Source: a virus. From it: a stretch of DNA of 34,002 bases. The notes beneath the pieces are model-generated. The model made no database searches and was not told where the DNA came from. It worked only from the letters and a program-made list of their open reading frames with translations. The stretch lies in the IMG/VR virus record IMGVR_UViG_3300034037_000033, positions 1 through 34,002 of that record; one strand, written 5' to 3'. The stretch's first letter is position 1; each line of letters begins with the position of its first letter. The position numbers and the translations under genes are program-made. Positions 4,854 through 30,586 of the stretch are shown piece after piece.

Positions 4854-5563
4854 AGCCAGTTATTTTCCTTGAATAGGTTAGCCTTAAATGAAGGTACAGG
4901 AATTAAGCCAGATTTCTTAACTGCCTCACACTCTCTTTCAAACTTAATTAGGTAGTTGTCTTGTACGCTTGAGTTATCTGAAGTCAGGCCATTGATAGCA
5001 GGTATACGTGAAGCTACATTAAAAATCAAAGCATCTACAAGTGCAGGATGTATATCGACATTAACTGTACTTGGGTCAGCGACATTGGTAGGTATTCTGT
5101 TAGGCAATGCGCTGTAATGAACGACCATAGTTAGATCATCATAAGGCTGTTGTACTAATAATGTACGATAATCCAATAAGCTGATCTCATCAGGTGTACC
5201 GCCTGAGTTAAATGGCATATCGCAACCATTCTCATCAACAATATACAATATTTGGTTAATGTCTTCTTTGAATGGCTGACTCACTGTGTCAAGAATATAC
5301 AGAGGAGAAGCAGTAGCATCCATATTAGAGATAGCATAGTCATAACTAAGTACATATCGAGTGATATGGGAGTATTGTTGGACTACAACAGAATCGAATT
5401 TATAAGGAATTCGCTTATTTACTGCCACTAAACCAAGGTTAATTAATGTGATTATCTGTGGGTAGTTTGATGACTCTATGCCAGCACCTAACTCACCACC
5501 ACCCAGTCTAAGGGAAGATAATTCCCCATAACTCAAGTACTCAAAAAGCTCATTCAATTTCAT
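4850..5563 (-). CDS. N4 gp67-like virion/neck protein
   Basis: A 237-aa protein with no signal peptide or membrane segment. It has an N-terminal helix (NELFEYLSYGELSSLRLG) and an acidic middle region. It sits between the large terminase and the tail appendage gene, the place of N4 gene 67, whose product is a minor virion protein. Proteins with this N-terminal pattern are common in podoviruses as head-tail adaptor or neck components, but I recognise no catalytic motif. The start at 5563 has AGGTAG upstream. The stop overlaps the start of the tail gene by four bases, and 14 bases separate it from the terminase stop. The gp67 assignment rests mainly on synteny. Confidence 0.65.
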   Translation of the reverse strand: MKLNELFEYLSYGELSSLRLGGGELGAGIESSNYPQIITLINLGLVAVNKRIPYKFDSVVVQQYSHITRYVLSYDYAISNMDATASPLYILDTVSQPFKEDINQILYIVDENGCDMPFNSGGTPDEISLLDYRTLLVQQPYDDLTMVVHYSALPNRIPTNVADPSTVNVDIHPALVDALIFNVASRIPAINGLTSDNSSVQDNYLIKFERECEAVKKSGLIPVPSFKANLFKENNWL

Positions 5564-5577
5564 TATATCTACCTACC

Positions 5578-8220
5578 TTACACGATGTAGTTGGAGTAGC
5601 TATCGAGTCCTGCATCTAACTGATTATCATAGTCTACTTCCCAAATTTTACTTTCCTCATTATATACCAACGGCACATCATTGCTAGGTTTCCATGCCTT
5701 CATCAACGACAACATAGATACTATATCAATAAAGTCATCATGTTTACTTTTAAATCCGCCATGTGAGGCTAATGTAAGCTCATTTATAGCTTCCTTGATA
5801 AGGGCAGTATCCTTCATTTCTTCAGGGAAATAGATCTTACCTGCCTTAAATAACGGAACTACAGTACTGAAACGAGTAAATTTATTAGTACTAGGACGGA
5901 TACCAGGATTATTATTGTTGCCTTCAGATGTTAGTGGGAAGAATATATTGCGTTCTATCATCATATTTTTAATGAATGGTATAAAACCACCTTGCTGTCC
6001 AGTAACTTCGATACCTACACCAATAGGTTTATACATTTGCGCTAGTCTAAATAGGTCATCTAATGACTTATCTAGTGTCTGTCTTACACAAATACCATCT
6101 ATTAAGTACCAGCTACCTTCTGCAGAGTAAGCCCATACACCTACTATACTGTAATCTGCACTAGTCTTCTCACTGACTGCAAAGTCAGTAGTAATATACA
6201 CATTAAAGTTGTGTAGATTGCGAATTACAGTGTCTCTACTAAACCAACGTATGTCATTATCTTGTATTAATCTGTCATCATCAGACATAATGCGTAACAT
6301 AAGCTCTTGGTTAAATGTATCTATCTTGCCTTGTAACAATGCTTTCTCGTACTTGGCTTTAACATAGCCATAATCAAAGCGATCTTCCCATGCACCTCTA
6401 AATTCTTCTCTAGTACACGGAAATTCCTCACAAACTGGGAATACATTAACTTTCCATGCACCTGATTCAACCGCTTTATACAGCGGATCTCTCGCATTAA
6501 ACGGAGTACCTGACCAAATTATCTTATGTCTTTGTGGGTGTAGAGCGTAATCTATTGCTTTATAGATGGTATCCTCAACACTTGCAATAACAGTAGCAGA
6601 ACGTGCATCTTCATCACTAATCAAGTCATCCAGTACAGCTAAATAAGGACGTTGACCCATTTCTTTAGCACCACGAACACCTGTATTATGTGTACGGAAG
6701 TAACAATCAGCTATGAACTGTCTTTCTTCGTTATCTACTGCAATACATTGACTTGGTTCTTGTTCAATAGGAGTAATGGACTCTACAGCCACTAATCGGG
6801 TTCTGGGTTTATTATTTAGAGCTTTACGAGGTAGACGAAAAAGAGGAAACTCGCTCCATATTTCAACGCACCATGCTTCTGCATGTGAATGTTTTGATAT
6901 AAATGCTGTACCACCCAAAGACCGAATAATACATGCTAAATCGTCACATAACTGATGTGAGCTACTTGTGAAAGTGGTTCGTCCGTTTGCAGAGCAAGTA
7001 CCGTCTGTGTCCATTAGCCCCTGAACCAACGCTAAACGCTGTTCAATGCTGCTATAGAAATAGCTTTCAGGTATAAACTTTAATTCCCCACGTACATTTA
7101 AACCTAGTTTTACCAACGTCTTTCCCAGTCCTCGGATAGACTGTGTAACTGCGTTTGATCGTGGGTCTTTATACAGACTACCAAATGCGTAAGGAATATG
7201 TGTGTGGTAGTGATGCAACTCTTCAAAATGGCAAGTCAGCTCTACCGAACCACAGTCTTTGCGTATTCTACCATCTCCTAGAATTACACCCAACGTATAT
7301 GGATCTATCGGTAACTCAACCTCTGGGTACATCATTGGTTCAACATTACGGACAAACATAGTTCGTTCATTTGATATGTAATCAGGTTTACCTTTTCGTT
7401 TACGTTTACGTGAAAACAACAAAGGCTGTTCCAGTAAGTCTAAAGTAGAGAGAACATAATCTGAGTACTTAGCTTTGTTGTGGAGATTTTCCTTCAACAC
7501 TACAGGATTTAAGTGGTCTTCACTTACTTTTAGGCATCTCCCGTCTTCTAATTGAATACGGTACATTGGTTTATGAAAAATTTCGCTTTTCTTTGTAATA
7601 CGTGTGAGTTTCCCATCTGCACCGAAAATCTCATCACCTACCTGACACTCCCTAATAGTAGTCTTACCGGAAGGTGTAAATAGTTCAGTATCTAGTGATA
7701 GTGCTTTTGCACCATATCCTTTTACTACAAAATGTTTCCCCTCTATGTTGATAAATTCCCAACGAGTGTCTGTAAATTTGATCTTAGGTACGTAAGTCTG
7801 TAGGAATTCTGAGTTAGCCCAGCGATGTTCCAAGTTCTTACGCATGTTCTTAACACCGTTATCTATACTGTCAGAAACATACATAGCCAAGGGAACATCA
7901 CCAAAACCAGGTATATGGCCATATACGCCTAAATACAGGAACAAATACTCTGTTAATGTAGTCTTAGCCATACCACGGCTACACATATTAGCTACATAAG
8001 GGTTCTCATCTACGAAACTATCCAATATCTTACAATGGATAACAGGTGATTTATTCTCTTCTCCTTCTGCCCCATTAACCAGCTTAATGAAAGCCAGGAA
8101 CTCTAAAGCAAAATCACTAGGGATATAGCTTGGATCTGGGGCATAATTTACTTCATTAAGCCATTCTTCTACTGATTTAGCAGTAGGCGTAAGTCCTGTA
8201 TTTACATCAAGTTGTTGCAT
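5578..8220 (-). CDS. terL: Terminase large subunit (TerL) containing an in-frame intein
   Basis: An 880-aa precursor whose mature extein part is 540 aa, a normal TerL length. The ATPase half has a deviant Walker A, CSRGMAKTT (80-88), a Walker B, LAVLDDL (527-533), and a coupling motif, SGTP (570-573). The RNase H-fold nuclease half has acidic residues D679 (TTDFAVSEKTS), E738 (GIEVTG) and D828/D829/D832 (KHDDFID). These translocate and cut concatemeric DNA into the procapsid. An intein (residues 173-512) interrupts the protein between Walker A and Walker B, after GYGAK and before TGVRGAKEMG, and must be spliced out for activity. The start at 8220 has AGAGGATTA upstream, inside the end of the TerS candidate gene. 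The position matches N4 gp68. Confidence 0.95.
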   Translation of the reverse strand: MQQLDVNTGLTPTAKSVEEWLNEVNYAPDPSYIPSDFALEFLAFIKLVNGAEGEENKSPVIHCKILDSFVDENPYVANMCSRGMAKTTLTEYLFLYLGVYGHIPGFGDVPLAMYVSDSIDNGVKNMRKNLEHRWANSEFLQTYVPKIKFTDTRWEFINIEGKHFVVKGYGAKALSLDTELFTPSGKTTIRECQVGDEIFGADGKLTRITKKSEIFHKPMYRIQLEDGRCLKVSEDHLNPVVLKENLHNKAKYSDYVLSTLDLLEQPLLFSRKRKRKGKPDYISNERTMFVRNVEPMMYPEVELPIDPYTLGVILGDGRIRKDCGSVELTCHFEELHHYHTHIPYAFGSLYKDPRSNAVTQSIRGLGKTLVKLGLNVRGELKFIPESYFYSSIEQRLALVQGLMDTDGTCSANGRTTFTSSSHQLCDDLACIIRSLGGTAFISKHSHAEAWCVEIWSEFPLFRLPRKALNNKPRTRLVAVESITPIEQEPSQCIAVDNEERQFIADCYFRTHNTGVRGAKEMGQRPYLAVLDDLISDEDARSATVIASVEDTIYKAIDYALHPQRHKIIWSGTPFNARDPLYKAVESGAWKVNVFPVCEEFPCTREEFRGAWEDRFDYGYVKAKYEKALLQGKIDTFNQELMLRIMSDDDRLIQDNDIRWFSRDTVIRNLHNFNVYITTDFAVSEKTSADYSIVGVWAYSAEGSWYLIDGICVRQTLDKSLDDLFRLAQMYKPIGVGIEVTGQQGGFIPFIKNMMIERNIFFPLTSEGNNNNPGIRPSTNKFTRFSTVVPLFKAGKIYFPEEMKDTALIKEAINELTLASHGGFKSKHDDFIDIVSMLSLMKAWKPSNDVPLVYNEESKIWEVDYDNQLDAGLDSYSNYIV
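6685..7704 (-). mobile_element. TerL intein with LAGLIDADG homing endonuclease, class-3-like
   Basis: A 340-aa insertion, Ala173 to Asn512 of the precursor. It begins ALSLDTELFTPSG and has no nucleophile at position 1, as in class 3 inteins of phage terminases and DnaB. It ends RTHN followed by Thr+1. The endonuclease carries two LAGLIDADG motifs, LGVILGDG (310-317) and LVQGLMDTDG (398-407). Of the class 3 Trp-Cys-Thr triad, Cys (C492 in QCIAVDNEERQF, intein position 320) and Thr (T510, next to the terminal HN) are present. The block B Trp after HL is Asn (HLN, N238, intein position 66). The penultimate His and terminal Asn are intact. Splicing is therefore expected but not proven. Confidence 0.9.
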
Positions 8221-8223
8221 AGA

Positions 8224-8937
8224 TTAATCCTCTCTGTCAGGCGTTATATCTATGATACGACTTTCTGCTATCTCTTTAACAGAACTGTATTGGCTTTGTA
8301 TCATAGCTTTTTGTTGTGCTACCAATTCCATAGTCGTCTTACGTAGCTCATCAATAGTACCATCCTCTTTAATGCTCATATCTATTTCTAATTTCTGTGT
8401 CTCTGGGCGCTTCAAATGAGTCAATAAGCTATTAGCTGCATCACTTCTTACTTTCTCACTCTTCGCATTCATCATCAAATCTGCCTGTACATTGATTGCT
8501 TTTTGGTAAATATCAGCATTCATAATATGTACAGGTACTAACGTCTGCTCTAATATCTGCGTAACCAGCTTATTATTGTTATACATAGACACATAAGAGG
8601 ATATTTCCTTAGGTGTTCTACCATCAGCTACCAGCTTATTGTATCTATCAGGGAATGTCTTAATATATGCTTGTAAATTAGAGTTACCTAACAGCTTATT
8701 GGTTACATACCTAACAGCATCCAGGTAGTTTTCCATCTTAAACTTACCGTCCCTTAACACTGTACTATATGTAATTAAGTTATCTCGGTAAGCCTCTCTA
8801 AATTCATCATCCATAACCAAACTATTTAAAGTAGCTACCATCTGTGGCGTAACTGCTTTACGTACCGACTTAGGTACTACTTCCTTCAGCTCTGCTTCAG
8901 TTATTACTGGCTTATTAATTGTTACATCATTACTCAT
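8224..8937 (-). CDS. Putative terminase small subunit (gp69-like position)
   Basis: A 237-aa, largely helical, soluble protein just upstream of TerL, with three bases between its stop and the TerL ATG. It has an extended charged N-terminus and a helical middle with repeated Asn/Lys turns. The C-terminal third (about 170-237) is charged and likely coiled coil. I see no clear helix-turn-helix, so the small-terminase call is from location, size and helical composition. Its start has AGGTG five bases upstream. It is probably translated with TerL, the gp67-like gene and the tail gene from one leftward late transcript. Confidence 0.5.
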   Translation of the reverse strand: MSNDVTINKPVITEAELKEVVPKSVRKAVTPQMVATLNSLVMDDEFREAYRDNLITYSTVLRDGKFKMENYLDAVRYVTNKLLGNSNLQAYIKTFPDRYNKLVADGRTPKEISSYVSMYNNNKLVTQILEQTLVPVHIMNADIYQKAINVQADLMMNAKSEKVRSDAANSLLTHLKRPETQKLEIDMSIKEDGTIDELRKTTMELVAQQKAMIQSQYSSVKEIAESRIIDITPDRED

Positions 8938-8991
8938 GTGAACACCTATTGACTGGTTTATTATTCATTGATATTATCATTTTGCTTTTTT

Positions 8992-9021
8992 TGCAAAAGC
9001 TCCTTTTCTGCAAAAGCTCCT
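8992..9021. repeat. Two direct copies of TGCAAAAGCTCCT, 17-bp period
   Basis: Perfect 13-bp copies at 8992-9004 and 9009-9021 lie between the winged-helix gene and the TerS candidate. On the minus strand they read AGGAGCTTTTGCA, and a TTTTGC/GCAAAA dyad (8981-8998) overlaps the first copy. The function is unknown. They could be protein binding sites or part of an RNA leader for the late operon. Confidence 0.6.
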
Positions 9022-9026
9022 GTTGT

Positions 9027-9071
9027 CCCGCTTATAGGTTTTATAGTATTTTCCTTATAAGCGGGTTTTTT
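9027..9071 (+). terminator. Intrinsic terminator oriented rightward
   Basis: A perfect 10-bp stem, CCCGCTTATA (9027-9036) with TATAAGCGGG (9056-9065), a 19-nt loop, then six Ts on the plus strand. The U-tract is correct only for rightward transcription, although both flanking genes are leftward. In the leftward direction there is a run of As before the stem and no U-tract after it. Confidence 0.7.
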
Positions 9072-9072
9072 A

Positions 9073-9483
9073 TTACCCTGCTTTACGTATAGCCTCCAAT
9101 AATCCCTCATCAGCGCCATATTCTCTTTCAAGGTTCTTAATTGCCCTTACAGAGTCTAAACCAATGAAGAAGTATATAAACTTAACGCCTTTATTAGACT
9201 TCATCTGTACTTTATAGAAATAACCTGCTTTTTCAAGCCGTAGGCGCTCTTTCTGCACTGTCTGGGTACTTACCCCTAGGATATTAGCAAAATAGCTGTC
9301 ATCGAACGTACAGTCCTCTATATGACATGAATCCAAGTAGAGTAAATAAAGTAGTGTAGCTCTCTCACCTACTGCTTGTAATAAAGCCATCTTATCTTTA
9401 ACAGTGGTATATACGTTAGTGTGTTTAGTGTTGTCTTGTGTATCTGCTTTTACTGCTGTGATTATTTTTAAAGGTTTTGTCAT
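9073..9483 (-). CDS. Winged helix-turn-helix transcriptional regulator
   Basis: A 136-aa protein from the ATG at 9483, chosen because GGGAG lies at proper spacing before it. An upstream in-frame ATG at 9501 would place that ribosome site inside the gene. Residues 63-89 (SYFANILGVSTQTVQKERLR, then LEKAGYF) fit a helix-turn-helix with recognition helix STQTVQKERL. Residues 91-108 form the two-strand wing. The N-terminal third is helical and may dimerise. It is the first gene of the leftward late block, and a promoter with palindromic repeats lies directly upstream, so autoregulation and control of late transcription are likely. The ligand is unknown. Confidence 0.75.
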   Translation of the reverse strand: MTKPLKIITAVKADTQDNTKHTNVYTTVKDKMALLQAVGERATLLYLLYLDSCHIEDCTFDDSYFANILGVSTQTVQKERLRLEKAGYFYKVQMKSNKGVKFIYFFIGLDSVRAIKNLEREYGADEGLLEAIRKAG

Positions 9484-9499
9484 GATAAGCTCCCAAACC

Positions 9500-9577
9500 A
9501 TATCTAGGTAAACATTACATGTCCTATTCTATATCTAATTAGGTATGTTGTCACCCATTTCATATCTAGATAGATAC
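9500..9577. promoter_or_regulatory. Three operator-like palindromic repeats at 31-bp spacing
   Basis: Sites beginning ATATCTA occur at 9500, 9531 and 9562, each exactly 31 bp from the next (about three helical turns). Site 2 (ATATCTAATTAGGTAT) and site 3 (ATATCTAGATAGATAC) are near-perfect 16-bp dyads of ATATCTA-NN-TAGRTAT, and site 1 is a weaker half-site. Site 2 lies between the -35 and -10 of the predicted leftward promoter. They are the natural binding sites for the adjacent winged-helix protein (inference). Confidence 0.7.
9526..9554 (-). promoter_or_regulatory. Leftward sigma70-type promoter for the regulator/late operon
   Basis: On the minus strand GTGACA (9554-9549) is followed after 17 bp by TAGAAT (9531-9526). 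Each hexamer matches the bacterial consensus at five of six positions. Late genes of N4 are transcribed by host sigma70 RNA polymerase, which agrees with a host-type promoter here. The central palindromic operator fills the spacer, so a bound repressor would exclude polymerase. Confidence 0.6.
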
Positions 9578-9870
9578 GATTTGGGACATAGTAAAAAGTA
9601 CTAATATTATATATTTCAATAACTTACTAAAAATTGATGTGGTTTTTCCCCTTAAGTATTATAAGAGAAAAGAAGTGCTCTCTTTTTGTAATAGTCCTCA
9701 ACTTTTTTATCAAAAATAAAAAATTAGTATGATGGTAGTATACACAGTCTAAACAGACTGAAACCGAATATCCCCCCCTACTCGGTTTACAAATCACCTT
9801 ATGCCTTTAATCCAAACCTGCTGGCGCAGGCGTTGGCAATAATGCCTTAAATAATTAAAGAGGAATAACC
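9578..9870 (+). other. Non-coding leader with a chain of small hairpins
   Basis: No gene is seen. The first part is AT-rich, with a weak hairpin plus T-run (9663-9687). The second part holds four consecutive inverted repeats: CAGTCT/AGACTG (9745-9760), AAACCGA/TCGGTTT around a loop with seven Cs (9761-9788), CCTGC/GCAGG (9817-9830) and GGCA/TGCC (9835-9846). They immediately precede the ribosome site of the 50-aa ORF, so they probably form its structured 5' leader. A possible rightward -10 (TATGAT, 9728-9733) has no good -35. An early promoter used by virion RNA polymerase could also be here. Confidence 0.45.
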
Positions 9871-10023
9871 ATGCGTAAGTGCTGGAACCTATTTTGGGAG
9901 ACGCTGTTCAACCTTCTAACATCAGCGTTCTTCCTAAGCGAGGCGATGAAAAAAGCGTCTAAAGAACTCACGGAGTCAGATGATTCTGATTCCGAAGATA
10001 TACGTAAAGAGCTCCTTAAATAG
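9871..10023 (+). CDS. Small early ORF, 50 aa, unknown function
   Basis: ATG at 9871 with AGAGGAA seven bases upstream. The product has an amphipathic N-terminal helix rich in Trp/Phe/Leu (MRKCWNLFWETLFNLL) and an acidic Ser/Asp/Glu C-terminal tail (TESDDSDSED). A Trp/Phe-rich helix with an acidic tail is typical of small phage proteins that dock on a host enzyme or on membrane, but no family is recognised. The strong ribosome site, the structured leader and a terminator whose stem includes the last codons and the stop mark it as a self-contained transcription unit at the head of the rightward region. Confidence 0.6.
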   Translation: MRKCWNLFWETLFNLLTSAFFLSEAMKKASKELTESDDSDSEDIRKELLK

Positions 10024-10038
10024 GGGCTCTTTTTTTTT
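10009..10038 (+). terminator. Intrinsic terminator overlapping the end of the 50-aa ORF
   Basis: An eight-pair stem, GAGCTCCT (10009-10016) with AGGGGCTC (10022-10029), loop TAAAT, followed by nine Ts. The stop codon TAG (10021-10023) is at the loop/stem boundary. Confidence 0.85.
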
Positions 10039-10186
10039 ATCCCATACACACACAAGAAGATATTACCTCTAAATACTCTTATAAGCTCCTGTGAGCCATT
10101 CTAAGCGTATTTCTCTTATCACCCTATACAATCACCTTATTTACCTCTAATAAGCTCTTATATCGCTATTCATGCAGCCGAGCATA

Positions 10187-10222
10187 TAGCGAGGCATACA
10201 CAAGTAGCGAGACGTACACAAG
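10187..10222. repeat. 18-bp tandem direct repeat (16/18 identical)
   Basis: TAGCGAGGCATACACAAG at 10187-10204 is followed without gap by TAGCGAGACGTACACAAG at 10205-10222. The first copy overlaps the right arm of the 10163-10192 hairpin. Confidence 0.75.
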
Positions 10223-10263
10223 ACACAGGGAAGATAGAACAATCAAGAAGAGGAAGAAGGGCG

Positions 10264-10373
10264 TATAAATTACTGTGTTTTGTGGTATAGGCTATTGTGT
10301 GTAAGTTACTGTGTATAAGTTATTGTTTTATATATATATAAATTATTATGCTCTATATGTATAAATTATTATG
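10264..10373. repeat. Six iteron-like 14-bp repeats, TATAARTTAYTRTG
   Basis: Copies begin at 10264, 10286, 10300, 10314, 10337 and 10360. Three are head-to-tail with a 14-bp step, and the others are spaced 22-23 bp. The last two are identical (TATAAATTATTATG). Very AT-rich. Confidence 0.6.
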
Positions 10374-10382
10374 TTTTACACA

Positions 10383-10482
10383 GGTAAAAGTATGCTAATT
10401 ATATAGGTAAAAATATAGGTAAAAGTGACATAAGTCATTGATTTACATAAGTAAAAGTAAGCTAAGTTATTGATTATTATAT
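10383..10482. repeat. GGTAAAAG repeat cluster including a 31-bp tandem pair
   Basis: GGTAAAAG-like units start at 10383, 10406, 10419 and 10450. The 31-bp segments at 10420-10450 and 10451-10481 match at 24 of 31 positions, sharing GTAAAAGT, TAAGT and ATTGATT blocks in the same order. The 31-bp period equals the operator period at 9500-9577, though the sequences differ. Confidence 0.55.
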
Positions 10483-10600
10483 TCCTTAATCTACCCTAAG
10501 CATTAACACCCACCTCTGCTTTACACCTGTTTGACAACAGGTTTAGGAAGCTATGCCATTTAGGTATAGCTAATTATTAATCAGCAAGAGGAGTACTTCT

Positions 10601-10891
10601 ATGAAGTATTTTGTATCGCGCCATCAAGGTGCAATCAAGTGGGCGTTGCCTTTATTGGGCGACGTCCACGTAGTAGCTCACATGGATAGTGAGCTACTAG
10701 GCCTCATCAAGGAAGGTGATGAGGTCTATGGAACACTTCCGCTGCATTTAGTGGCGGAAGTGTGTAAAAAGGCTAAGTATTTTAACTTAGCGCTAGACGT
10801 AGCCCCATATCAAAGGGGCATGGAGCTAGAAGGTGAGGAATACCTCGCCTGCAATCCGCGATTCGAGCGGTACATGGTTACAAAACTGTAG
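10601..10891 (+). CDS. csx16: Csx16 family protein (candidate cyclic-oligoadenylate ring nuclease / anti-CRISPR)
   Basis: The 96-aa product fits the Csx16 (VVA1548) family along its whole length: N-terminal FVSRHQGAIKWA (4-15), GDEVYGTLPLHLVAEVC (39-55), YFNLALDV (60-67), QRGMEL (71-76) and a C-terminal RFERYMV. Csx16 is known as an accessory protein of type III CRISPR loci, and this family has been reported to degrade the cyclic tetra-adenylate second messenger. No cas gene or array is in the window, so in this phage the likely role is to destroy the alarm signal of a host type III system, by analogy with phage AcrIII-1 (inference). It is placed among early genes, has AGAGGAG upstream of the ATG, and is followed by its own terminator, as expected for a rapidly expressed counter-defence protein. 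Confidence 0.85.
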   Translation: MKYFVSRHQGAIKWALPLLGDVHVVAHMDSELLGLIKEGDEVYGTLPLHLVAEVCKKAKYFNLALDVAPYQRGMELEGEEYLACNPRFERYMVTKL

Positions 10892-10910
10892 CCATGTACT
10901 GTGTACATGG
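10892..10910 (+). other. 8-bp hairpin with 3-nt loop directly after csx16 stop
   Basis: CCATGTAC (10892-10899), loop TGT, GTACATGG (10903-10910), a perfect stem abutting the stop codon. It could extend the terminator that follows or be a hairpin promoter for virion RNA polymerase. The loop does not match the N4 loop as I remember it, so the latter is speculative. Confidence 0.4.
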
Positions 10911-10950
10911 ACCAATGGCATCTGGCGATGCTGTTGGTATTTTTATTTTA
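10911..10950 (+). terminator. Intrinsic terminator after csx16
   Basis: A 12-pair stem, ACCAATGGCATC (10911-10922) with GATGCTGTTGGT (10927-10938), two G-U pairs, loop TGGC, then ATTTTTATTTTA. Confidence 0.85.
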
Positions 10951-10975
10951 TCTTTAATTTTTATATGGAGGCCTT

Positions 10976-11146
10976 ATGGCTACTATTGAAAAAATATCTA
11001 TCCCACAACCATGTGATTGTGGGCATACATTAGGCGATTTCTGCTCTGACTGTTGGAGTCAGGGCGGGTACTGGAGTCAGGACGTTGAAAAATGCCCCGA
11101 CGGTACATATAAAGCCGTTTACCCTTCGTTCTATGACGAAGAGTAG
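10976..11146 (+). CDS. Small putative zinc-binding protein, 56 aa
   Basis: ATG at 10976 with GGAGG five bases upstream. The product has cysteines at 13, 15, 23 and 26 in the pattern PCDCGH...FCSDCW and a further Cys at 40, consistent with one small zinc knuckle, followed by a Tyr/Trp-rich acidic tail. I do not recognise a family. It lies between two strong hairpins, downstream of csx16 and its terminator, and is probably an early host-interaction protein. Small zinc proteins of early phage regions often bind host nucleic acid enzymes, but that is only an analogy. Confidence 0.6.
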   Translation: MATIEKISIPQPCDCGHTLGDFCSDCWSQGGYWSQDVEKCPDGTYKAVYPSFYDEE

Positions 11147-11152
11147 GTGGCT

Positions 11153-11217
11153 GGGAAAGGCATAACATCTGTACATCAAGTATAGGTGTTATGCCTTTCC
11201 CTATCTTACACAGATAG
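11153..11217 (+). terminator. Long 18-bp hairpin plus second hairpin (terminator or RNase III site)
   Basis: GGGAAAGGCATAACATCT (11153-11170) pairs with AGGTGTTATGCCTTTCCC (11184-11201), all 18 positions with one U-G, loop 13 nt. CTATCT/AGATAG (11201-11217) follows. There is no U-tract, which suits an mRNA processing or stabilising structure better than a classic terminator. Confidence 0.5.
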
Positions 11218-11342
11218 AGCAGATAGTATTCCATAGTAAACCATAGGTATTACTTATGGTCTGGTGTAGGGATACTGTCGTATCTTTTGGCAACATGTGT
11301 TGTCAAGTCTTATTAATTAATTTAGCTACTAGGAGAAATATC

Positions 11343-11627
11343 ATGGCTATCATTAAAGAAACTTCAACTCAAGCAAACAACAGCTCACGTAAAGTGAGCA
11401 AATTTGTAAATGTCCATTTATTAAATAAATCAGGTGAACCAATTAGCCAAATCGGGGCAATCCTCGTTTTCGAGGGTGAAAAGCCCACGAAGTATATGCA
11501 GGCATTGCTCGATTTGGCTCAAGAAGAGCCGAACCGAATTTCTGAAATTCGTTGCGGTATTAGTATCAGGGATAATACCCCTGATAATACCAAAGTCGAC
11601 CTAATGAATGAGTTAGGTCTTATTTAA
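11343..11627 (+). CDS. Conserved-looking early protein, 94 aa, unknown function
   Basis: I start at the ATG at 11343 because AGGAG precedes it at proper spacing; a longer frame to 11256 has no ribosome site. The product has a Lys/Ser/Asn-rich N-terminus, a beta-rich centre (KFVNVHLLNKSGEPISQIG, then AILVFEGEK), a short helix (KYMQALLDLAQEE) and an Asp-rich end. The fold resembles small phage proteins found near transcription genes, but no motif identifies it. It is followed by a strong terminator and then the RNA polymerase genes. Confidence 0.6.
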   Translation: MAIIKETSTQANNSSRKVSKFVNVHLLNKSGEPISQIGAILVFEGEKPTKYMQALLDLAQEEPNRISEIRCGISIRDNTPDNTKVDLMNELGLI

Positions 11628-11631
11628 CAAG

Positions 11632-11667
11632 AAGCCCTATAGCTAATGCTGTAGGGCTTTTATTTTA
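11632..11667 (+). terminator. Intrinsic terminator upstream of the RNA polymerase genes
   Basis: AAGCCCTATAGC pairs with GCTGTAGGGCTT around loop TAAT (12 pairs with one U-G), followed by TTTATTTTATT. Confidence 0.85.
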
Positions 11668-11696
11668 TTAGTACAGATAGTAGAGAGGACTAAATC

Positions 11697-12497
11697 ATGG
11701 ATAAAATCCAACTAGAGATAAAACGCCTAGAACAGGTGATCATAGAAGATACTTACGGTAAGCATAATATCCGTAAATATCTTCAATTAGCATTAAGGGA
11801 TTACTTTGATAATCACCCTAATCAATTCATACCTCAAGACAGGTATGAGTTGTATGTAACCAATATTTTGTTACTAACAATAGACTATCCGTCTGTGTTA
11901 GTTACATCTCTACTAGGTGTTGTAGCTCAACAACTAGACATGGAGTATAACCAAGCTCTATGTACTGTATTAGATGAACTACAGCACCTTGAATGTATTG
12001 ATATTTACGATAGTGAATATCCATACATCATTCCTAAAATCTCATTACAGGATGAGATTATTGAATACATCAAGTCCAAAGAATATCTACCGCCTATGGT
12101 GTGTAGACCAAGACTTATCTTAAAGAATACTGATGAACCTTACTTAACCAAACGTAAGGGTTCAGTGATTCTAGGTGATTCATTTAATCATCATGACAAG
12201 CCTCTGGCATTAGATGTATTAAATATATTGGGCAAAGTCCAACTGTCGTTGGATGAGGATATTTTATCTGTACCACGGGATAATCCCGATGATGATGAAA
12301 TGCTAGCCATATTTGATGCTACGTCTGCGTACATGGCATTAGATATTGTGCATAAATATGATAACACTTGTTATCTGCCTTGGAAGTATGACAAACGAGG
12401 TAGAGTATACAGTCAGGGCTATCATATTAACATTCAGAGTGATGCGTATAACAAAGCTCTGATTAACTTAAATAAACCTATTACTTTAGAGGACTAA
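11697..12497 (+). CDS. N4 RNAP II subunit 1 (N-terminal half of a T7-type RNA polymerase; gp15-like)
   Basis: A 266-aa protein matching the N-terminal and early palm part of single-subunit RNA polymerases. LPPMVCRP (131-138) matches the region before the catalytic core. The T/DxxGR region reads WKYDKRGRVYSQ (229-240), like T7 RGRVY at 423-427, followed by NIQSDAYNKALI. The chain ends at PITLED, before motif A. In N4 the middle-gene polymerase RNAP II is a heterodimer of gp15 and gp16 of similar sizes, and the second half is encoded at 13091. Together they transcribe middle genes. The start has AGAGGACTA upstream, a ribosome site repeated before the next genes and complementary to the RNA at 16567. 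Confidence 0.92.
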   Translation: MDKIQLEIKRLEQVIIEDTYGKHNIRKYLQLALRDYFDNHPNQFIPQDRYELYVTNILLLTIDYPSVLVTSLLGVVAQQLDMEYNQALCTVLDELQHLECIDIYDSEYPYIIPKISLQDEIIEYIKSKEYLPPMVCRPRLILKNTDEPYLTKRKGSVILGDSFNHHDKPLALDVLNILGKVQLSLDEDILSVPRDNPDDDEMLAIFDATSAYMALDIVHKYDNTCYLPWKYDKRGRVYSQGYHINIQSDAYNKALINLNKPITLED

Positions 12498-12499
12498 CT

Positions 12500-12889
12500 A
12501 TGACTACTGCAACTACTGTTTATCTATCATTGATTGTGGCTTTAGTGATTATATTATTTATCAATTACTTAGGTAACAAGAAATTACATGAAGCCCAAGA
12601 GGAATTTGTACTACATCTGGATGATAGTACATCAATTCTCAGGGAATTTGAAAAGAGGCTTAAAGCCATCAAAGTGGATGGCAAAATAGATTATTCTCAG
12701 TTATCTAGAGATGAGCTAATGGCAATGGAATATGCCTTAGAGCGTATTAAATATAATCTAGACGAAATGCTTAGTAATGCATTCTATCGCAAGCATAAAG
12801 AGGATTTAAATCCTTATATTGCGGTAGTGTCAATGGGAGTAATGGTGCTCAATAAGGCAATTATGGGAGCTAAGAAAAATGCTGAATAG
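12500..12889 (+). CDS. Membrane-anchored coiled-coil protein between the RNAP subunit genes
   Basis: A 129-aa protein. Residues 7-24 form one transmembrane helix with a short periplasmic N-terminus. The rest is charged and helical (KKLHEAQEEFVLHLDDSTS onward), likely a cytoplasmic coiled coil, with a weaker hydrophobic stretch at 107-122. The ATG is three bases after the stop of RNAP subunit 1, and the ribosome site TTTAGAGGACTA lies inside the end of that gene, so translation is coupled. No family is recognised. In N4, RNAP II works at the inner membrane with early proteins gp1 and gp2, so a membrane partner for the polymerase is an attractive but unproved idea. Confidence 0.65.
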   Translation: MTTATTVYLSLIVALVIILFINYLGNKKLHEAQEEFVLHLDDSTSILREFEKRLKAIKVDGKIDYSQLSRDELMAMEYALERIKYNLDEMLSNAFYRKHKEDLNPYIAVVSMGVMVLNKAIMGAKKNAE

Positions 12890-13040
12890 ACGTAAAAGAG
12901 CTCTTAGTATATTGAGCGGTATTGTGGGATTTACCTCATTTAATACTGCTCTATGGGCAATGATGACCTACAGTGTGCCAGTAGCCATTGTAGGCTTAAC
13001 TGGGATGTTAATAGCTATAGCTATCCATCCAAGTAATTAA
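12879..13040 (+). CDS. Small two-helix membrane protein, 53 aa
   Basis: ATG at 12879 overlaps the previous gene by 11 bases, and GGGAGC lies upstream within it. The product starts MLNRRKRAL (positive, cytoplasmic) and has two hydrophobic segments (about 11-31 and 34-49). The short form resembles small phage inner-membrane proteins. The tight overlap with the membrane coiled-coil gene suggests the two act together. The function is unknown. Confidence 0.6.
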   Translation: MLNRRKRALSILSGIVGFTSFNTALWAMMTYSVPVAIVGLTGMLIAIAIHPSN

Positions 13041-13049
13041 ATAACTAAC

Positions 13050-13073
13050 AGCCAGTAGCAATGCTGGCTTTTT
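13050..13073 (+). terminator. Hairpin with T-run between the two RNAP subunit regions
   Basis: AGCCAG (13050-13055) with CTGGCT (13064-13069) and TTTTT. The hairpin is followed directly by the ribosome site of RNAP subunit 2. It may attenuate the second subunit relative to the first. Confidence 0.65.
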
Positions 13074-13090
13074 AATTAGAGGACTAGATT

Positions 13091-14344
13091 ATGGAATCAT
13101 TTAATGGTTATCAGTATTTATTAATTGCATTTGCGAATGCTATTGATGGGCTTGATAAATTAAACTATGAAGAACGTATATTACAGGCAGAGGCTATTTT
13201 AGCTAAGTCTGATCAAGAGATTATTGATGTAATCAATGATCAAAAAGAAAAGTACTTAGCTTACAAGTATTATCGAGAAATAACGGAATACCGTGACAAA
13301 GGCAAGCTAGAAACCAATGTATTAATTGGTCTAGATGCCACTGCTAGTGGTATGCAGTTACTAGGTGTGCTTACAAGATGCGAGCGTACTATGCGTATAG
13401 CCAATGTGCTTGATACACCTAACCGAGTAGACCCTTATACTCATGTATACAGAGTGTTTAACAGTAAGTTAAACCATAAAGGGACTGCTACTCGTAGTGA
13501 GGTGAAACAGGCTATAATGACTAGCTTCTATGGTAGCCAGGCAACACCTCGTAATCTGTTCCCTAATCCAGATGATTTGGGAGCATTCTACCAGTCTCTA
13601 GCAGAAGAAGCGCCTGGTGCATGGGCTGCTAGAAACTACTTATTGAGTTTGCATAACCCTGATGTAGACTCAGTATCATTTGTGATGCCTGATAATCACC
13701 ATGTTTATCTACCGTACAAAAGCAAAGAAACACTGGAGCTATGTGTAGATTACTTGAATAACCCTATTCAGCATCAAGTGGTGATGAACAAACCTGTTCA
13801 ACGTGATGTATCTATCGCTGCTAACCTAGTGCATGCAGTAGACGGATATATCGTAAGAGAGCTAGTACGTATGGCTAATATAAGCCAAGGTTCTCTTACA
13901 GGCTTAATATCAGCGGTTAAGAGTGAAATTGATTTTCGTGTATTACATGAAAACAATGAAACCAAAGTAATTAACCGTATGCCGTCATTAGCATGGATGT
14001 ACCAAGACTGGTCACAGTTGGCATTAGAAGAGTTAAGGAATTTTTATCGTTACTTAACCATATTCAATGCAACTAATCACATGCTATCTAAGCATGGGAA
14101 GAATAGACCACATAAGCCAGTATATGACTTATTGCCTATACATGATTCATTCTGGATGCATCCTAATTATGGCGATTACACTAGAGCATACTATTCAATG
14201 ATATTAGCTGAAATTTACCAATCAGATTTATTTTCTGATTTAGTATGTCAGCTCACTGATACTGCGCCAGAGAAGTTAATAGAAAACCCTATTAATACGG
14301 ACGTATTGAATAGTATCTATAACAGTAATTACTCAATTTGTTAG
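13091..14344 (+). CDS. N4 RNAP II subunit 2 (catalytic half of a T7-type RNA polymerase; gp16-like)
   Basis: A 417-aa protein carrying all catalytic motifs. Motif A is LDATASGMQ, with D82 matching T7 D537. Motif B is R135-SEV-K139-QAIMTSF-Y147-GS, matching T7 R627/K631/Y639. Motif C is LPIHDSF, with H351 and D352 matching T7 H811/D812. It lacks the N-terminal domain and the GRVY palm motif, which are on the protein encoded at 11697. N4 gp16 has the same division. The gene starts 5' of any hairpin-free leader: TTAGAGGACTAGA sits at 13076-13088, directly after a hairpin with T-run. The two halves are separated here by two small membrane protein genes. Confidence 0.93.
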   Translation: MESFNGYQYLLIAFANAIDGLDKLNYEERILQAEAILAKSDQEIIDVINDQKEKYLAYKYYREITEYRDKGKLETNVLIGLDATASGMQLLGVLTRCERTMRIANVLDTPNRVDPYTHVYRVFNSKLNHKGTATRSEVKQAIMTSFYGSQATPRNLFPNPDDLGAFYQSLAEEAPGAWAARNYLLSLHNPDVDSVSFVMPDNHHVYLPYKSKETLELCVDYLNNPIQHQVVMNKPVQRDVSIAANLVHAVDGYIVRELVRMANISQGSLTGLISAVKSEIDFRVLHENNETKVINRMPSLAWMYQDWSQLALEELRNFYRYLTIFNATNHMLSKHGKNRPHKPVYDLLPIHDSFWMHPNYGDYTRAYYSMILAEIYQSDLFSDLVCQLTDTAPEKLIENPINTDVLNSIYNSNYSIC

Positions 14345-14354
14345 AGGATTAGAT

Positions 14355-14735
14355 ATGAGTTATCAATATAAAGACCAAGTAAAATTTAAGCCATGCACTA
14401 AGCTAATCAGCAGAGGTGCGCAGGGAAGCAGCTCTTATTGGTATGCCCAAGACCCTGTAAGGACACTGGGTATTAATGTGCCTGTTAATGCCGATACTTA
14501 TACCAAAGATGATTTGGTAGGTATCAGTGTTAATGGTAACCGACATAATCGGGTAGCGCCTGATTATGATTTAATAAAGAAAGCCGCTGATGCTGGTGTC
14601 AGATTTGTCACTGATAACAGCTATCATCGTAATCGCCCATTTAATGTGGGTGAACGTGAAGTAGCCGCTTTCTTAACATCATTGGGTTACTCGAATGAAG
14701 AAACCCCTGATGGTTGTGTGTGGTGGAAACCTTAA
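14355..14735 (+). CDS. Hypothetical protein, 126 aa, cotranscribed with RNAP subunit 2
   Basis: A soluble mixed alpha/beta protein with a beta-rich first half (SSSYWYAQDP, VGISVNGNRHNRVAPDYDLI) and a C-terminal domain ending DGCVWWKP. The pattern RPFNVGEREVAAFLTSLGY (93-111) is a helix. I recognise no enzyme family. The ATG has TTAGAGGATTAGA at 14341-14353, inside the RNAP subunit 2 stop, so both are on one transcript, which ends at the terminator at 14762-14794. The position equals N4 gene 17, for which I recall no known function. Confidence 0.6.
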   Translation: MSYQYKDQVKFKPCTKLISRGAQGSSSYWYAQDPVRTLGINVPVNADTYTKDDLVGISVNGNRHNRVAPDYDLIKKAADAGVRFVTDNSYHRNRPFNVGEREVAAFLTSLGYSNEETPDGCVWWKP

Positions 14736-14761
14736 TCCACCGCTACCTCTCTCACCACTTT

Positions 14762-14794
14762 CCCTAAGACCTCGCGTCTTAGGGCTTTTTTTTT
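14762..14794 (+). terminator. Strong intrinsic terminator after the RNAP operon
   Basis: A perfect 9-bp stem, CCCTAAGAC (14762-14770) with GTCTTAGGG (14776-14784), loop CTCGC, followed after one C by nine Ts. Confidence 0.92.
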
Positions 14795-14807
14795 ATAAGG
14801 CTTTTAT

Positions 14808-14996
14808 ATGTATTACGACGAAGAGATAGAAACAGCTACTGACTTAGAAGATATGGAGATAGATAAGATAGAACTAACCGATGAAGGTGTTCTTATTTAT
14901 ACTAATGGAGCAATTGCATTCACATTAACATACAATGAGCTATTGGTTCTTAATAACCATGCTAATAAACGAGCCTTGAAGAAACTGTTATCATAA
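14808..14996 (+). CDS. Small acidic protein, 62 aa, unknown
   Basis: ATG at 14808 with AAGG upstream. The first 20 residues are strongly acidic (YDEEIETATDLEDMEIDKI), followed by a beta-rich centre and a basic C-terminal helix (NKRALKKLLS). No family is recognised. It is alone between a terminator and a pair of overlapping hairpins that include its stop codon. Confidence 0.55.
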   Translation: MYYDEEIETATDLEDMEIDKIELTDEGVLIYTNGAIAFTLTYNELLVLNNHANKRALKKLLS

Positions 14997-15029
14997 CCTA
15001 TTTAGGTTATGTTTAGGTTTCTAAATAGG
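14992..15029 (+). promoter_or_regulatory. Two mutually exclusive 9-bp hairpins (switch-like)
   Basis: CATAACCTA pairs perfectly with TAGGTTATG (14992-15011). The overlapping CCTATTTAG (14997-15005) pairs perfectly with CTAAATAGG (15021-15029). Both cannot form together. No T-run follows either one. They lie between the 62-aa gene and the gene at 15160. Confidence 0.5.
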
Positions 15030-15159
15030 CTCTAAATCGCCCTAAAACGCTCTTTAAGGTGGTTGTGGGGCTAACCTTTAAACTAAATAGTAAAATCACT
15101 AAAATCGCTTAAAATGACTATATACACCCTATACACTAACCAGTAAAAGATAGACTTCT

Positions 15160-15453
15160 ATGAAACCTATAATCCTTCCAAAGAGACCAGTACCTGAGCA
15201 ATTCAAATTAAAGACCTCAGAAGAATGTATTGATACATTATTACTGTGCTATCTAGTGAACTTAGATGAGCCAGTTAGTAAAAGATTTAAACGTATTAAA
15301 ATAACAGCTAACAATCTGCTAGATAAAACAGACGATGAGATTGTTGTTGGGTTGTGCTTACGTATTTTAGCTACAAGAAGCACTAAAGCCCTTAAAGAAG
15401 CGATGAATCGCTTATTACATCCTGAGAAAGCTCTAGCACTTCAAGAGAAATAA
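15160..15453 (+). CDS. Hypothetical protein, 97 aa
   Basis: A small basic, helical protein (SEECIDTLLLCYLVNLDEP; DDEIVVGLCLRILATRST). No recognised domain. The ribosome site is weak (AAAGATAG region). A two-base gap to the next gene suggests coupled translation. It opens a group of genes that leads to ThyX. Confidence 0.55.
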   Translation: MKPIILPKRPVPEQFKLKTSEECIDTLLLCYLVNLDEPVSKRFKRIKITANNLLDKTDDEIVVGLCLRILATRSTKALKEAMNRLLHPEKALALQEK

Positions 15454-15455
15454 CC

Positions 15456-15734
15456 ATGATTATATTAACTGAGCAAGAACACTCAAAACTTGTGGACGAG
15501 TACTATGAGTTAGATAGACTACTCAGTACCCATGGTATTCCTGAGGATGTTCACCAGAATATTCTTAATACCATGGATAAGATAGAGAAGATTCTCGAAG
15601 AGAATTCTAATCCAAAGCATGTATTAAAATTACACCCACAAAACAAGAAACTTAAAGGTATTAAAAAATATGACGGTAAAAGTAAAACTCCTGGCTTACA
15701 GCGAATTCAATGGCGAAACTGCTGCAACAATTGA
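15456..15734 (+). CDS. Hypothetical helical protein, 92 aa
   Basis: A charged helical N-terminal part (EQEHSKLVDEYYELDRLL) resembling small phage coiled-coil proteins, and a Lys-rich C-terminal part. Its final 65 bases overlap the start of ThyX in another frame, so the Lys-rich tail may be partly constrained by thyX. No function is recognised. Confidence 0.5.
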   Translation: MIILTEQEHSKLVDEYYELDRLLSTHGIPEDVHQNILNTMDKIEKILEENSNPKHVLKLHPQNKKLKGIKKYDGKSKTPGLQRIQWRNCCNN

Positions 15735-16530
15735 ATTAACTTATCCTCGTTTTATCCATGCGGAAGTAATGACACATCGGGTATTTTCCCGTAACTCAGC
15801 AAGCAGTAGAGCTATCCCTGCCAAGAAGATGAGACAAGCAGTATTGAAAGATATTGCTATGCCTATTCATTGGGGGGCTAACCAAGCAGGTATGCAAGCA
15901 TATGAAGAAATATCAGCTAAGCGTAAAAAGCTAGGCGTATTCTTATGGAAAACTGCAGCTAAATTAGCCTGTGGTATGCATTACCTCATGGAAAAAGCAG
16001 GTATACATAAGCAAGTAACCAACCGTATTATTGAACCATTCATGCACATGCGTGTGGTGGTTACCTCTACTGACTGGGAATCATTCCTTTGGTTACGTGA
16101 TCATAAAGCAGCTCAGCCTGAAATACAGTTATTAGCTAAGAAGATACGTAATGTACTTTCTTACAATAACCCAAGAAAATTAAAAGAAGGCGATGTACAC
16201 CTGCCTTATGTAACCAAGAAAGAATTACGTAAATACGTCAGTCTAGATAGTTTGTTAGCCCTGTCTTCTGCACGTTGTGCTGCAGTAAGTTACAATACTT
16301 ATTCAGACAATATTGATCTCAATAAAGCCAAGCAAATTAAGACTAAATTGATGGCTTCTAAAGATGACCCAGAAGATAGATTCCATGCGTCTCCATTCGA
16401 GCATCAGTTATTTGCTGTAAGTGATCCAGAACATCCTGGATGGACGCACATAGACAGACATGGTAGATACTATTCAGGTAATGTTTGTGGGTTTGTACAA
16501 TACAGACACATACTAGAACAAGACAGATAG
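15670..16530 (+). CDS. thyX: Flavin-dependent thymidylate synthase ThyX
   Basis: ThyX makes dTMP from dUMP using methylene-tetrahydrofolate and FAD/NADPH. The signature THRVFSRNSASSR (35-47), the ThyX RHRxxSxNxxSxR motif with Thr in first place, identifies it. The surrounding IHAEVMTHR and the C-terminal SPFEHQLFAV with an H-rich end also fit. At 286 aa it is near the upper end of the family. Together with the phage dCTP deaminase at 18092 it forms a route from dCTP to dTMP. The start at 15670 gives the usual N-terminal strand VKVKLLAYS and has AAAGG upstream; it overlaps the preceding gene by 65 bases. Confidence 0.95.
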   Translation: MTVKVKLLAYSEFNGETAATIELTYPRFIHAEVMTHRVFSRNSASSRAIPAKKMRQAVLKDIAMPIHWGANQAGMQAYEEISAKRKKLGVFLWKTAAKLACGMHYLMEKAGIHKQVTNRIIEPFMHMRVVVTSTDWESFLWLRDHKAAQPEIQLLAKKIRNVLSYNNPRKLKEGDVHLPYVTKKELRKYVSLDSLLALSSARCAAVSYNTYSDNIDLNKAKQIKTKLMASKDDPEDRFHASPFEHQLFAVSDPEHPGWTHIDRHGRYYSGNVCGFVQYRHILEQDR

Positions 16531-16554
16531 TATTTACTATTTTTAAAAATTAGT

Positions 16555-16560
16555 TATTAT
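16555..16560 (+). promoter_or_regulatory. Possible -10 element for the structured RNA
   Basis: TATTAT (five of six to the sigma70 -10) with TTTACT at 16533-16538, 16-bp spacer. Seven bases after the -10 comes the first G of the long stem at 16567, a fitting start site. An AT-rich RNAP II start is an alternative. Confidence 0.4.
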
Positions 16561-16566
16561 AGTTTT

Positions 16567-16649
16567 GTCTGTGAGGGGGTTTGTCTCTCTCCTCAATCTT
16601 GCGATCAAGGTGTTTCTTCTAGTCCTCTAAACACCTTCCCCTTGCAGAC
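16567..16649 (+). ncRNA. Candidate structured regulatory RNA with an anti-Shine-Dalgarno loop
   Basis: The ends pair over 13 positions: GTCTGTGAGGGGG (16567-16579) with the region 16637-16649 (three wobble pairs). Inside are a pyrimidine-rich single strand (TCTCTCTCCTC, 16584-16594), a small hairpin CTTG-CGAT-CAAG (16598-16609), and a hairpin GGTGTTT/AAACACC (16609-16635) with a 13-nt loop CTTCTAGTCCTCT. The loop and its 3' flank are the exact complement of TTAGAGGACTAGA upstream of RNAP subunit 2 (13 nt) and of TTTAGAGGACTA upstream of the gene at 12500 (12 nt), and match AGAGGACTA upstream of RNAP subunit 1. Loop-exposed anti-ribosome-site sequence is typical of antisense regulators. It could alternatively be the 5' leader of the ORF at 16672. 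Confidence 0.6.
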
Positions 16650-16671
16650 ATCATTCTTATGAGTATCTCCC

Positions 16672-16770
16672 ATGCCTATATCAGACCCTATACCAGTAAA
16701 ATATGCATCAATGCGTGAAGATAGGCTAAGTAAAGAGCATATAGAGAAAACCCAACAACTAGTTAAATAA
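16672..16770 (+). CDS. Possible 32-aa ORF
   Basis: An ATG at 16672 opens a short charged peptide starting MPISDPIPVKYASMRED and ending KTQQLVK. There is no clear ribosome site. It lies between the structured RNA and the DUF6378-like gene. Codon composition looks coding-like, but the length gives little certainty. Confidence 0.35.
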   Translation: MPISDPIPVKYASMREDRLSKEHIEKTQQLVK

Positions 16771-30000: not shown

Positions 30001-30066
30001 ATTTATGATGGTAAATCATATACAGGAGAAGAGTTCTATGCTGCTTATACCAATGGCACATTATGA
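27046..30066 (+). CDS. Family A DNA polymerase, N-terminal part (exonuclease + motif A), split gene
   Basis: A 1006-aa protein. The 3'-5' exonuclease domain has FIDVETA (D418, E420), FHNATFD (N586, D590) and YNATD (D683). The polymerase part has SGRLSSSNPNLQNIP (901-915) and motif A GADYNSLED (D940), then ends at GTL before motifs B and C, which are on the protein at 30543. The first 400 residues precede the exonuclease, and residues about 20-130 recall uracil-DNA glycosylase-like folds (weak). About 165 residues lie between exonuclease motifs I and II, more than usual. The last 45 residues look like a genuine subdomain. Motif A on one chain and motifs B/C on another means activity needs both proteins. 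Confidence 0.92.
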   Translation: MPKKVLVLSGYTHTPTNRKELQKHVLTPAGIDKDDVIYYTITPSKGKNPSKADIQEALEYSDLRDTLQSHDFAFILTTHGELFKRLVGVTQVGKTLGNALPLKGFKVPTEMSLPEVFYAYSPATYFASTQNKERNENIVIPAIKSAYINGVYEQTPLVKLTQDKEIYLIDLYDAYDDIPKQRLTYRRAKRFVDLGLVGESILDSINFTNPPTQSLFNAYITDSGSTITSTCVTATTMYVESVFKAAVNLMYQCYVKEYDPKLSTFEIGERALKALNNHSLKNIESPVKLDSSLIARAQLESIYIMDSFQEMINKVMGGDYDYSNNCYRCFTHLPTMLPMLDRAIQRLIEANIADPYLLDINYPDNGQLPIALFVQMQLFKEPGDSPIILHSKNSNHISVFDLLILYRYITQSKKLFIDVETASLQHVNNDVLSGSITVDDGKTFVFYKSRIKASERNYSPKRQNIHHPFTNISNTSQNCRPQATIPTIATGYDAKSTIHDSYPFTGIPTLPEEFRDCKHKVVNTVSTYNDSSTINYYSKLIDSKDSKGKAVKHTSNVFRGFSNINIANTLFACMYNSGDAKLIFHNATFDLKHIMWPAVLNTDYSKIEDPRVYPIMRDICRRSHDTALLAYLSLNSPEETSYSLKSLAQKAFGNYQLAEEDIKDMITYMDKNLGKALIYNATDTLATQYVYEEYSQKVVEEDQLDVYERIFQPSIFTLMVTELVGMPIDIERVTEIAEHLHDIKFNHTQSIACNPIILGFQEYLTKRAFDIAHSKWKTKKIPYEEFPKEEFNPNSDKQLQLLLYDVLELPVIDITKKGAPSTSQKTLKKLKNHTQDADVLLLLNDLIELAKVSIILQNFIKAFITNSVTFVSIGFNDKEEPFVDKTVTRLFGNFNLGGTVSGRLSSSNPNLQNIPSGSTYAKLIKSAFISTDEYIFSGADYNSLEDYVSALTTRDPNKLKVYIGHTIYQLTVNDTIHHIRDDATIIYDGKSYTGEEFYAAYTNGTL

Positions 30067-30586
30067 AGATAAATACTCTATAAGAGAGGATGGGGCTATT
30101 ATTTCGCATACAAACAACAGCCCCATAAAACCGATTAAAAACTCAAATGGGTACTATAAATACACATTCACTTTAAATGGTAAACGTGAACAAAAACTTA
30201 TTCACCAAGTAGTAGCAAAACATTTTCTACCTAACCCTTATAATCATACTCAGGTAAACCACAAAGATGGGAATAAAGCGAATAACTCTGTAGGTAATCT
30301 TGAATGGATCAGTAGTACGGGTAATATTCAGCACGCCTTAGAAACAGGATTAAGAAAAGGTTTTATGCCTTACGATGTAAAACTGGAACTCTTGCATAGA
30401 GTTTTGCAAGGTTCTCAAATAAGACAGTTAGCTGAGGAAGTAGGTAGAAGAGAAGAGTCTCTTTCTGGAATGCTGAGAAGAACAGCAGATAGAGAGAACT
30501 TACGTACTGAATGGGAGAATGAAATGAAGCGGAGAAGAAAAAGTGTCGCAATTCGGAACCTTGAAAAAATCAACAATCCATCTTAG
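30038..30586 (+). CDS. HNH homing endonuclease inserted in the DNA polymerase gene
   Basis: A 182-aa protein from the ATG at 30038 (GGAGAAGAG upstream). A NUMOD4-like start (DKYSIREDGAIISHTNN) is followed by an HNH_3 core VNHKDGNKANNSVGNLEW with NIQHALETG, then a helical C-terminal DNA-binding part (about 115-182, Arg/Lys-rich). It overlaps the polymerase N-part by 29 bases and the C-part by 44 bases, so it fills the whole insertion and leaves no room for a group I intron. Likely a free-standing endonuclease that cuts the uninterrupted polymerase gene. Confidence 0.9.
   Translation: MLLIPMAHYEDKYSIREDGAIISHTNNSPIKPIKNSNGYYKYTFTLNGKREQKLIHQVVAKHFLPNPYNHTQVNHKDGNKANNSVGNLEWISSTGNIQHALETGLRKGFMPYDVKLELLHRVLQGSQIRQLAEEVGRREESLSGMLRRTADRENLRTEWENEMKRRRKSVAIRNLEKINNPS

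Follow-up and report, generated by a model that had tools for sequence, protein, structure and literature searches.

The described proteins closest to the one reported here are the ring nucleases of the Csx16 family (PF09652 / TIGR02620 / Cas_VVA1548), whose cellular members are usually found in type III CRISPR loci, a position that is not part of the family definition. Purified Csx16 efficiently degrades cyclic tetra-adenylate (cA4) to linear products, and the tested protein cleaved neither cA3 nor cA6 even at tenfold higher enzyme; the same study found Csx16 in 2 of 28,114 phage genomes (Hoikkala et al., PMC12409355). The activity of Csx16 and its occurrence in phages are thus already published, and the idea of a phage-carried Csx16 is not new. 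The two phage cases counted in that study are probably the Methanobacterium viruses Drs3 and PhiF3, archaeal tailed viruses (Anaerodiviridae) whose stand-alone Csx16 is annotated as a “putative CRISPR-associated protein.” AcrIII-1 (viral Crn2, DUF1874/STIV_B116-like, PF08960) is a viral cA4 ring nuclease that acts as an anti-CRISPR, and a viral Crn2 homologue shows only weak fold similarity to Csx16 (DALI Z 4.8 to 2J6B; PMC12409355). Crn4b of phages and plasmids is likewise a ring nuclease of mobile elements and a proposed anti-CRISPR (PMC12830947), but differs from Csx16 in its unrelated fold and broad cOA specificity.

Here we analysed a 34,002-base IMG/VR virus contig, IMGVR_UViG_3300034037_000033 (positions 1 to 34,002, hereafter “the window”), which encodes an intact Csx16 (Table 1). 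Judged from its sequence, the record is a fragment of an N4-like (Schitoviridae-type) phage; relatives of this phage measure about 69-74 kb, against the 34 kb examined here. Its terL is about 50% identical to the terL genes of the Schitoviridae Vibrio phages JA-1 and VCO139, and the record also encodes the N4-type RNAP1 and RNAP2, a dCTP deaminase, a thymidylate synthase and an exonuclease. The giant virion RNA polymerase of Schitoviridae (about 3,500 aa) would be encoded beyond the 34 kb covered here. Two further features of the record were observed on the way. The terL gene (window 5578-8220) carries a long intein-like insert, as annotated in the terL of JA-1, and the DNA polymerase frame (27046-31376) appears by eye to be interrupted, with an HNH-type ORF (29963-30586) lying between its parts, which suggests a self-splicing intron or an intervening homing endonuclease.

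Table 1. Features of the csx16 locus, of the corresponding slot in the sibling contig L008 and of csx16 genes in other viral contigs (window coordinates unless a contig is named).
Feature	Position	Strand	Evidence or remark
AT-rich leader, candidate early promoter region	10300..10580	+	two hairpins (z = -3.0), GC 0.26; alignment with sibling, hairpin scores
Exchangeable cassette (csx16 and 56-aa ORF)	10581..11155	+	blastn against L008, ORFs, alignment
Ribosome-binding site region, AGAGGAG	10588..10600	+	read directly; AGGAG 7 nt before the csx16 ATG
csx16, 96-aa CARF-like ring nuclease homologue	10601..10891	+	ORF with ATG start, exact span; PF09652, TIGR02620 and PADLOC matches, invariant residues, AlphaFold2 model
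Terminator-like hairpin, 12 bp, core GCATCTGGCGATGC, then U-rich tail ATTTTTATTT	10911..10938	+	z = -3.7
56-aa Cys-rich small ORF, second cassette gene, CDCG..CSDC.. pattern	10976..11146	+	weak zinc-finger-like matches only
22-bp hairpin closing the cassette	11153..11201	+	L008 equivalent has another stem sequence
N4-like early RNA polymerase genes, RNAP1 (11697-12497) and RNAP2 (13091-14344)	11697..14344	+	phrog_2166 1.3e-47, phrog_2051 1.6e-89; early-region marker
Alternative cassette (105-aa and 63-aa ORFs)	L008:5542-6168	minus	
csx16 of L054	L054:10001-10303		43-kb viral contig; terL and portal genes lie about 2.5 kb downstream
csx16 of L124 and L125	L124:9989-10294, L125:9989-10294		related 89-kb and 111-kb phage contigs, amid small unknown genes

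The original prediction had read the 96-aa product as Csx16 from end to end, and profile searches bear this out. PF09652 matched it with E=1.1e-21 and 77.2 bits (curated cut-off 25), aligning residues 3-93 with profile positions 1-90 of 91; TIGR02620 (Csx16) gave 71.6 bits (curated cut-off 46.35) over positions 1-92 of 93, and the PADLOC Csx16 profile gave 8.7e-23. With scores this far beyond chance, the product is by sequence a Csx16 over its whole length. PHROGs held no model or family covering it. In an alignment of 50 Csx16 members (the phage protein and 49 homologues), all 12 invariant positions (S6, R7, H8, G10, A11, W14, H27, G44, P47, R72, G73 and E75) are retained, as are the near-invariant L46, L76, G39, D40 and V42, and the family pattern SRH-(P)GA..W / H / G-[TS]-L-P / R-G-x-E-L is present. 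The near-invariant P9 is replaced by Q, a change shared with the Csx16 of two other phage contigs (L124 and L125) and of Psychrobacter.

The AlphaFold2 model of the monomer is confident (pLDDT 96.7, pTM 0.86) and shows a small alpha/beta protein with alternating strands and helices, to be set against the CARF-like derived Rossmann fold with a 5-stranded sheet expected for Csx16. Its fold matches are weak and include, at Z 5.0 over 94 residues, the substrate-bound ring nuclease Sis0455 and, at Z 4.4, Sso2081, besides CARF domains from Cam1, Csm6 and Cad1; the CARF and ring-nuclease matches fall at Z 4-5. Since resolvases and other unrelated Rossmann-like folds score equally, the predicted fold, which is compatible with CARF, backs the Csx16 assignment without proving it; the structure prediction proposed earlier as a check thus gave a confident model whose likeness to ring nucleases is matched by that to unrelated proteins. 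Foldseek searches of the model against the PDB and BFVD returned no match at E<0.001, and phmmer against the PDB found no solved relative of Csx16. The phage protein agrees with the known family in end-to-end sequence, invariant residues and size, and its predicted fold would be compatible with CARF.

The invariant residues also bear on how the protein would handle its ligand. Rather than cleaving cA4 usefully, the phage Csx16 might bind it tightly and sequester the signal; the slow ring nuclease Csx15 and phage sponge proteins are precedents, Csx15 being a good cA4 sponge and a very slow nuclease that still neutralises immunity when over-expressed (PMC13148439). The divergence of the window sequence would fit such a role, but all invariant Csx16 residues are retained, and cA4 cleavage by the Csx16 that was tested is efficient (PMC12409355). 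Moreover, the large cOA output of type III systems makes sponging less effective, and Csx15 was not seen in phages (PMC13148439). We therefore consider sequestration improbable and retain cleavage of cA4 as the presumed activity.

Cellular Csx16 and the phage copy differ in their surroundings. Among 60 bacterial Csx16 loci fetched by similarity, 54 have relatives of Cmr, Csm6/CARF, Cas6, Cas1 or Cas2 nearby, within the DNA fetched around each gene, whereas the same queries found no such neighbour in the window or in the viral contig L054. As the original prediction stated, there is no cas gene or array in the window: the 34-kb record gave no match to the Cas10 palm domain (positive controls were found) or to the Cmr, Csm6, Cas1, Cas2 and Cas6 queries, and contains no CRISPR-like spaced repeats. 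Cas10 was likewise absent from all seven viral sequences searched (the window, L008, L054, L124, L125, Drs3 and PhiF3; two positive controls were detected). Within the 34-kb record, N4-like RNA polymerase and terL genes thus occur without Cas10, as in a virus with no type III system of its own, and the type III locus usual for cellular Csx16 is not found. The phage copy is an early-region accessory gene outside any CRISPR locus, with a presumed role in counter-defence instead of self-regulation. It would act as AcrIII-1 does, and it had been assigned to a different family from AcrIII-1; this holds, as PF08960 had no match in the record (a control was detected) and the protein matches only PF09652.

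The position of csx16 points to expression early in infection. It leads a group of three small genes lying immediately 5' of RNAP1, with about 0.8 kb between csx16 and RNAP1. The genome of JA-1 has terL at its right end, on the minus strand, and at its left end, on the plus strand, the early genes running toward RNAP1; in our record, these two blocks are joined through a 1-kb AT-rich stretch. Given this JA-1-like arrangement, csx16 heads the early region, in keeping with the early placement first claimed for it. In phage N4, transcription begins with the virion RNA polymerase, which reads the early genes as infection starts, those for the second RNA polymerase among them (PMC12633501). Judged from its position in the gene order, csx16 would belong to this first transcription wave; no N4 early-promoter hairpins were identified. 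Rfam found no known RNA element at the gathering threshold, and weaker matches were taken as chance. The strong ribosome site ascribed to csx16 is indeed present, and the terminator ascribed to it is plausible, given the hairpin and ATTTTTATTT tail that follow the gene.

How the gene came to this position is indicated by a near-isogenic sibling, IMGVR_UViG_3300034045_000035 (L008). By blastn, identity between the two contigs is 98.05% across window 1-10580 and 97.0% across 11156-16679, and the interval 10581-11155 between these blocks has no detectable homology in L008; no further break of this kind occurs in the overlap of about 16.7 kb. The L008 slot is filled by ORFs of 105 aa and 63 aa rather than by csx16 and the 56-aa ORF, and both phages have the same leader ahead of the slot, near-identical except for short indels close to its 5' end. 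Neither of the L008 ORFs has a Pfam or PHROG match. The two cassettes share one layout: a first gene, a hairpin with the GCATCTGGCGATGC core, a second gene and a long closing hairpin. The loops and positions of the cassette hairpins are kept between the phages, and their stem sequences differ yet still pair, which suggests that the cassette borders carry an RNA or DNA element with a function. The 56-aa Cys-rich ORF lies directly 3' of csx16 and is a possible partner. A search for further siblings through the common leader or flank returned only L008 among true relatives, and PF09652 had no match in any of 46 related N4-like records (L008 and 45 others). The GC3 of csx16 is 0.53, against 0.27-0.38 in 18 other genes of the window; that of the L008 105-aa gene is likewise high (0.44). 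The atypical GC3 points to a recent acquisition, and together with the exchange in L008 it indicates that csx16 is a recently swapped accessory gene.

Because this junction is seen in one contig only, and the closest homologues are bacterial, we considered whether a bacterial csx16 had been misjoined into a phage contig by chimeric assembly or host contamination. Both flanks, however, are phage sequence 97-98% identical to L008; the cassette boundaries coincide with gene and hairpin edges; the cassette holds the GCATCTGGCGATGC core, which occurs in 2 of the 123 fetched loci, namely this phage and L008; and no cas genes accompany csx16. The pattern of an exchanged module relative to L008 argues against a chimera, which we reject as highly implausible.

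Alternatively, csx16, as a recent arrival whose GC3 is atypical, might be a passenger with no function for the phage, and the absence of csx16 from the 97-98% identical sibling and the 45 other N4-like records would fit this. On the other hand, the frame is open, with a good Shine-Dalgarno sequence and intact conserved residues, and the different two-gene cassette in L008 identifies the slot as a site for cargo, not as the product of a chance insertion. The recurrence of Csx16 in several viral groups, and the purifying selection seen in one of them (below), also speak for a use to the phage. An idle passenger is in our judgement unlikely, and we favour a gene that serves the phage. A slot swapped between near-isogenic phages is typical of anti-defence loci. 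We tentatively suggest, while regarding it as somewhat doubtful, that the slot between leader and RNAP1 is a dedicated exchangeable anti-defence site, holding Csx16 with a 56-aa partner here and unrelated anti-defence proteins of 105 and 63 aa in L008; the latter would then be directed perhaps against a different signalling immunity.

Profile-guided scans of viral sequences detected Csx16 also in L054, L124 and L125. The scan patterns are insensitive, and one that found L124 and L125 would miss the window's own Csx16, so these counts are lower bounds; a single-sequence scan of the viral records returned no relatives. The Csx16 proteins of L124 and L125 are 82% identical, with dN of about 0.15 and saturated dS (not estimable by NG86, 1.8 by LWL85), a mark of strong purifying selection on Csx16 in this viral lineage. 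In a Csx16 tree built on 104 columns, with long branches and with L124 and L125 left out, the window protein takes a place apart from the L054 copy and from those of the archaeal viruses, which are likewise separate from each other, the proteins of Drs3 and PhiF3 being 27-31% identical to the window Csx16. Several independent viral acquisitions of Csx16 are likely. The window protein joins the Csx16 of an Aeromonas plasmid with weak support, both on long branches, and the donor is not nameable. With an identity of only about 45% to the nearest bacterial relatives and a long branch, the activity of the phage protein could be altered.

Based on these findings, we propose that this N4-like phage carries a functional, early-expressed Csx16 that degrades cA4 and so lets the phage escape type III immunity, a reading to which we assign a probability of roughly 0.7. 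The source of this ring nuclease, dimeric and CARF-like in our reading, would be a type III CRISPR locus of a proteobacterium, and on infection the phage would express it among its first genes, upstream of RNAP1 and RNAP2. When the host Cas10 complex senses phage RNA and makes cA4, Csx16 would bind this signal and cut it to small linear products, and the cA4-activated effectors (Csx1/Csm6-type, Can, Cam1) would stay off. For the phage protein, we infer each of the dimeric state, cA4 cleavage, early expression and the benefit of type III escape. The silencing role originally predicted for the gene is probably right in its type III part, which fits the family, the intactness of the gene, its early position and the apparent lack of a host-type CRISPR locus. 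Its extension to other cyclic-nucleotide immunity is a weak point, given the cA4 specificity of the Csx16 that was tested. Degradation of a CBASS, Thoeris or Panoptes-type signal instead of, or besides, cA4 might be imagined for a diverged protein, and multi-signal nucleases of mobile elements such as Crn4 exist (PMC12830947); but with cA3 and cA6 left uncleaved by the tested Csx16 at tenfold higher enzyme (PMC12409355), and with the bacterial relatives placed in type III loci, we think this very unlikely and take cA4 as the probable target.

What is new here is the intact Csx16 in an N4-like phage and the near-isogenic L008 with an alternative cassette. If our reading is true, tailed phages, probably of proteobacteria, would have in Csx16 a second ring-nuclease family that counters type III CRISPR. 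The window and L008 form a natural pair with and without csx16, and this pair suggests that the early region has a slot dedicated to genes that may be anti-defence. Within the large N4-like group, the common slot and the L008 cassette offer a concrete place to seek anti-defence genes not yet recognised, for which the 105-aa and 63-aa proteins are candidates.
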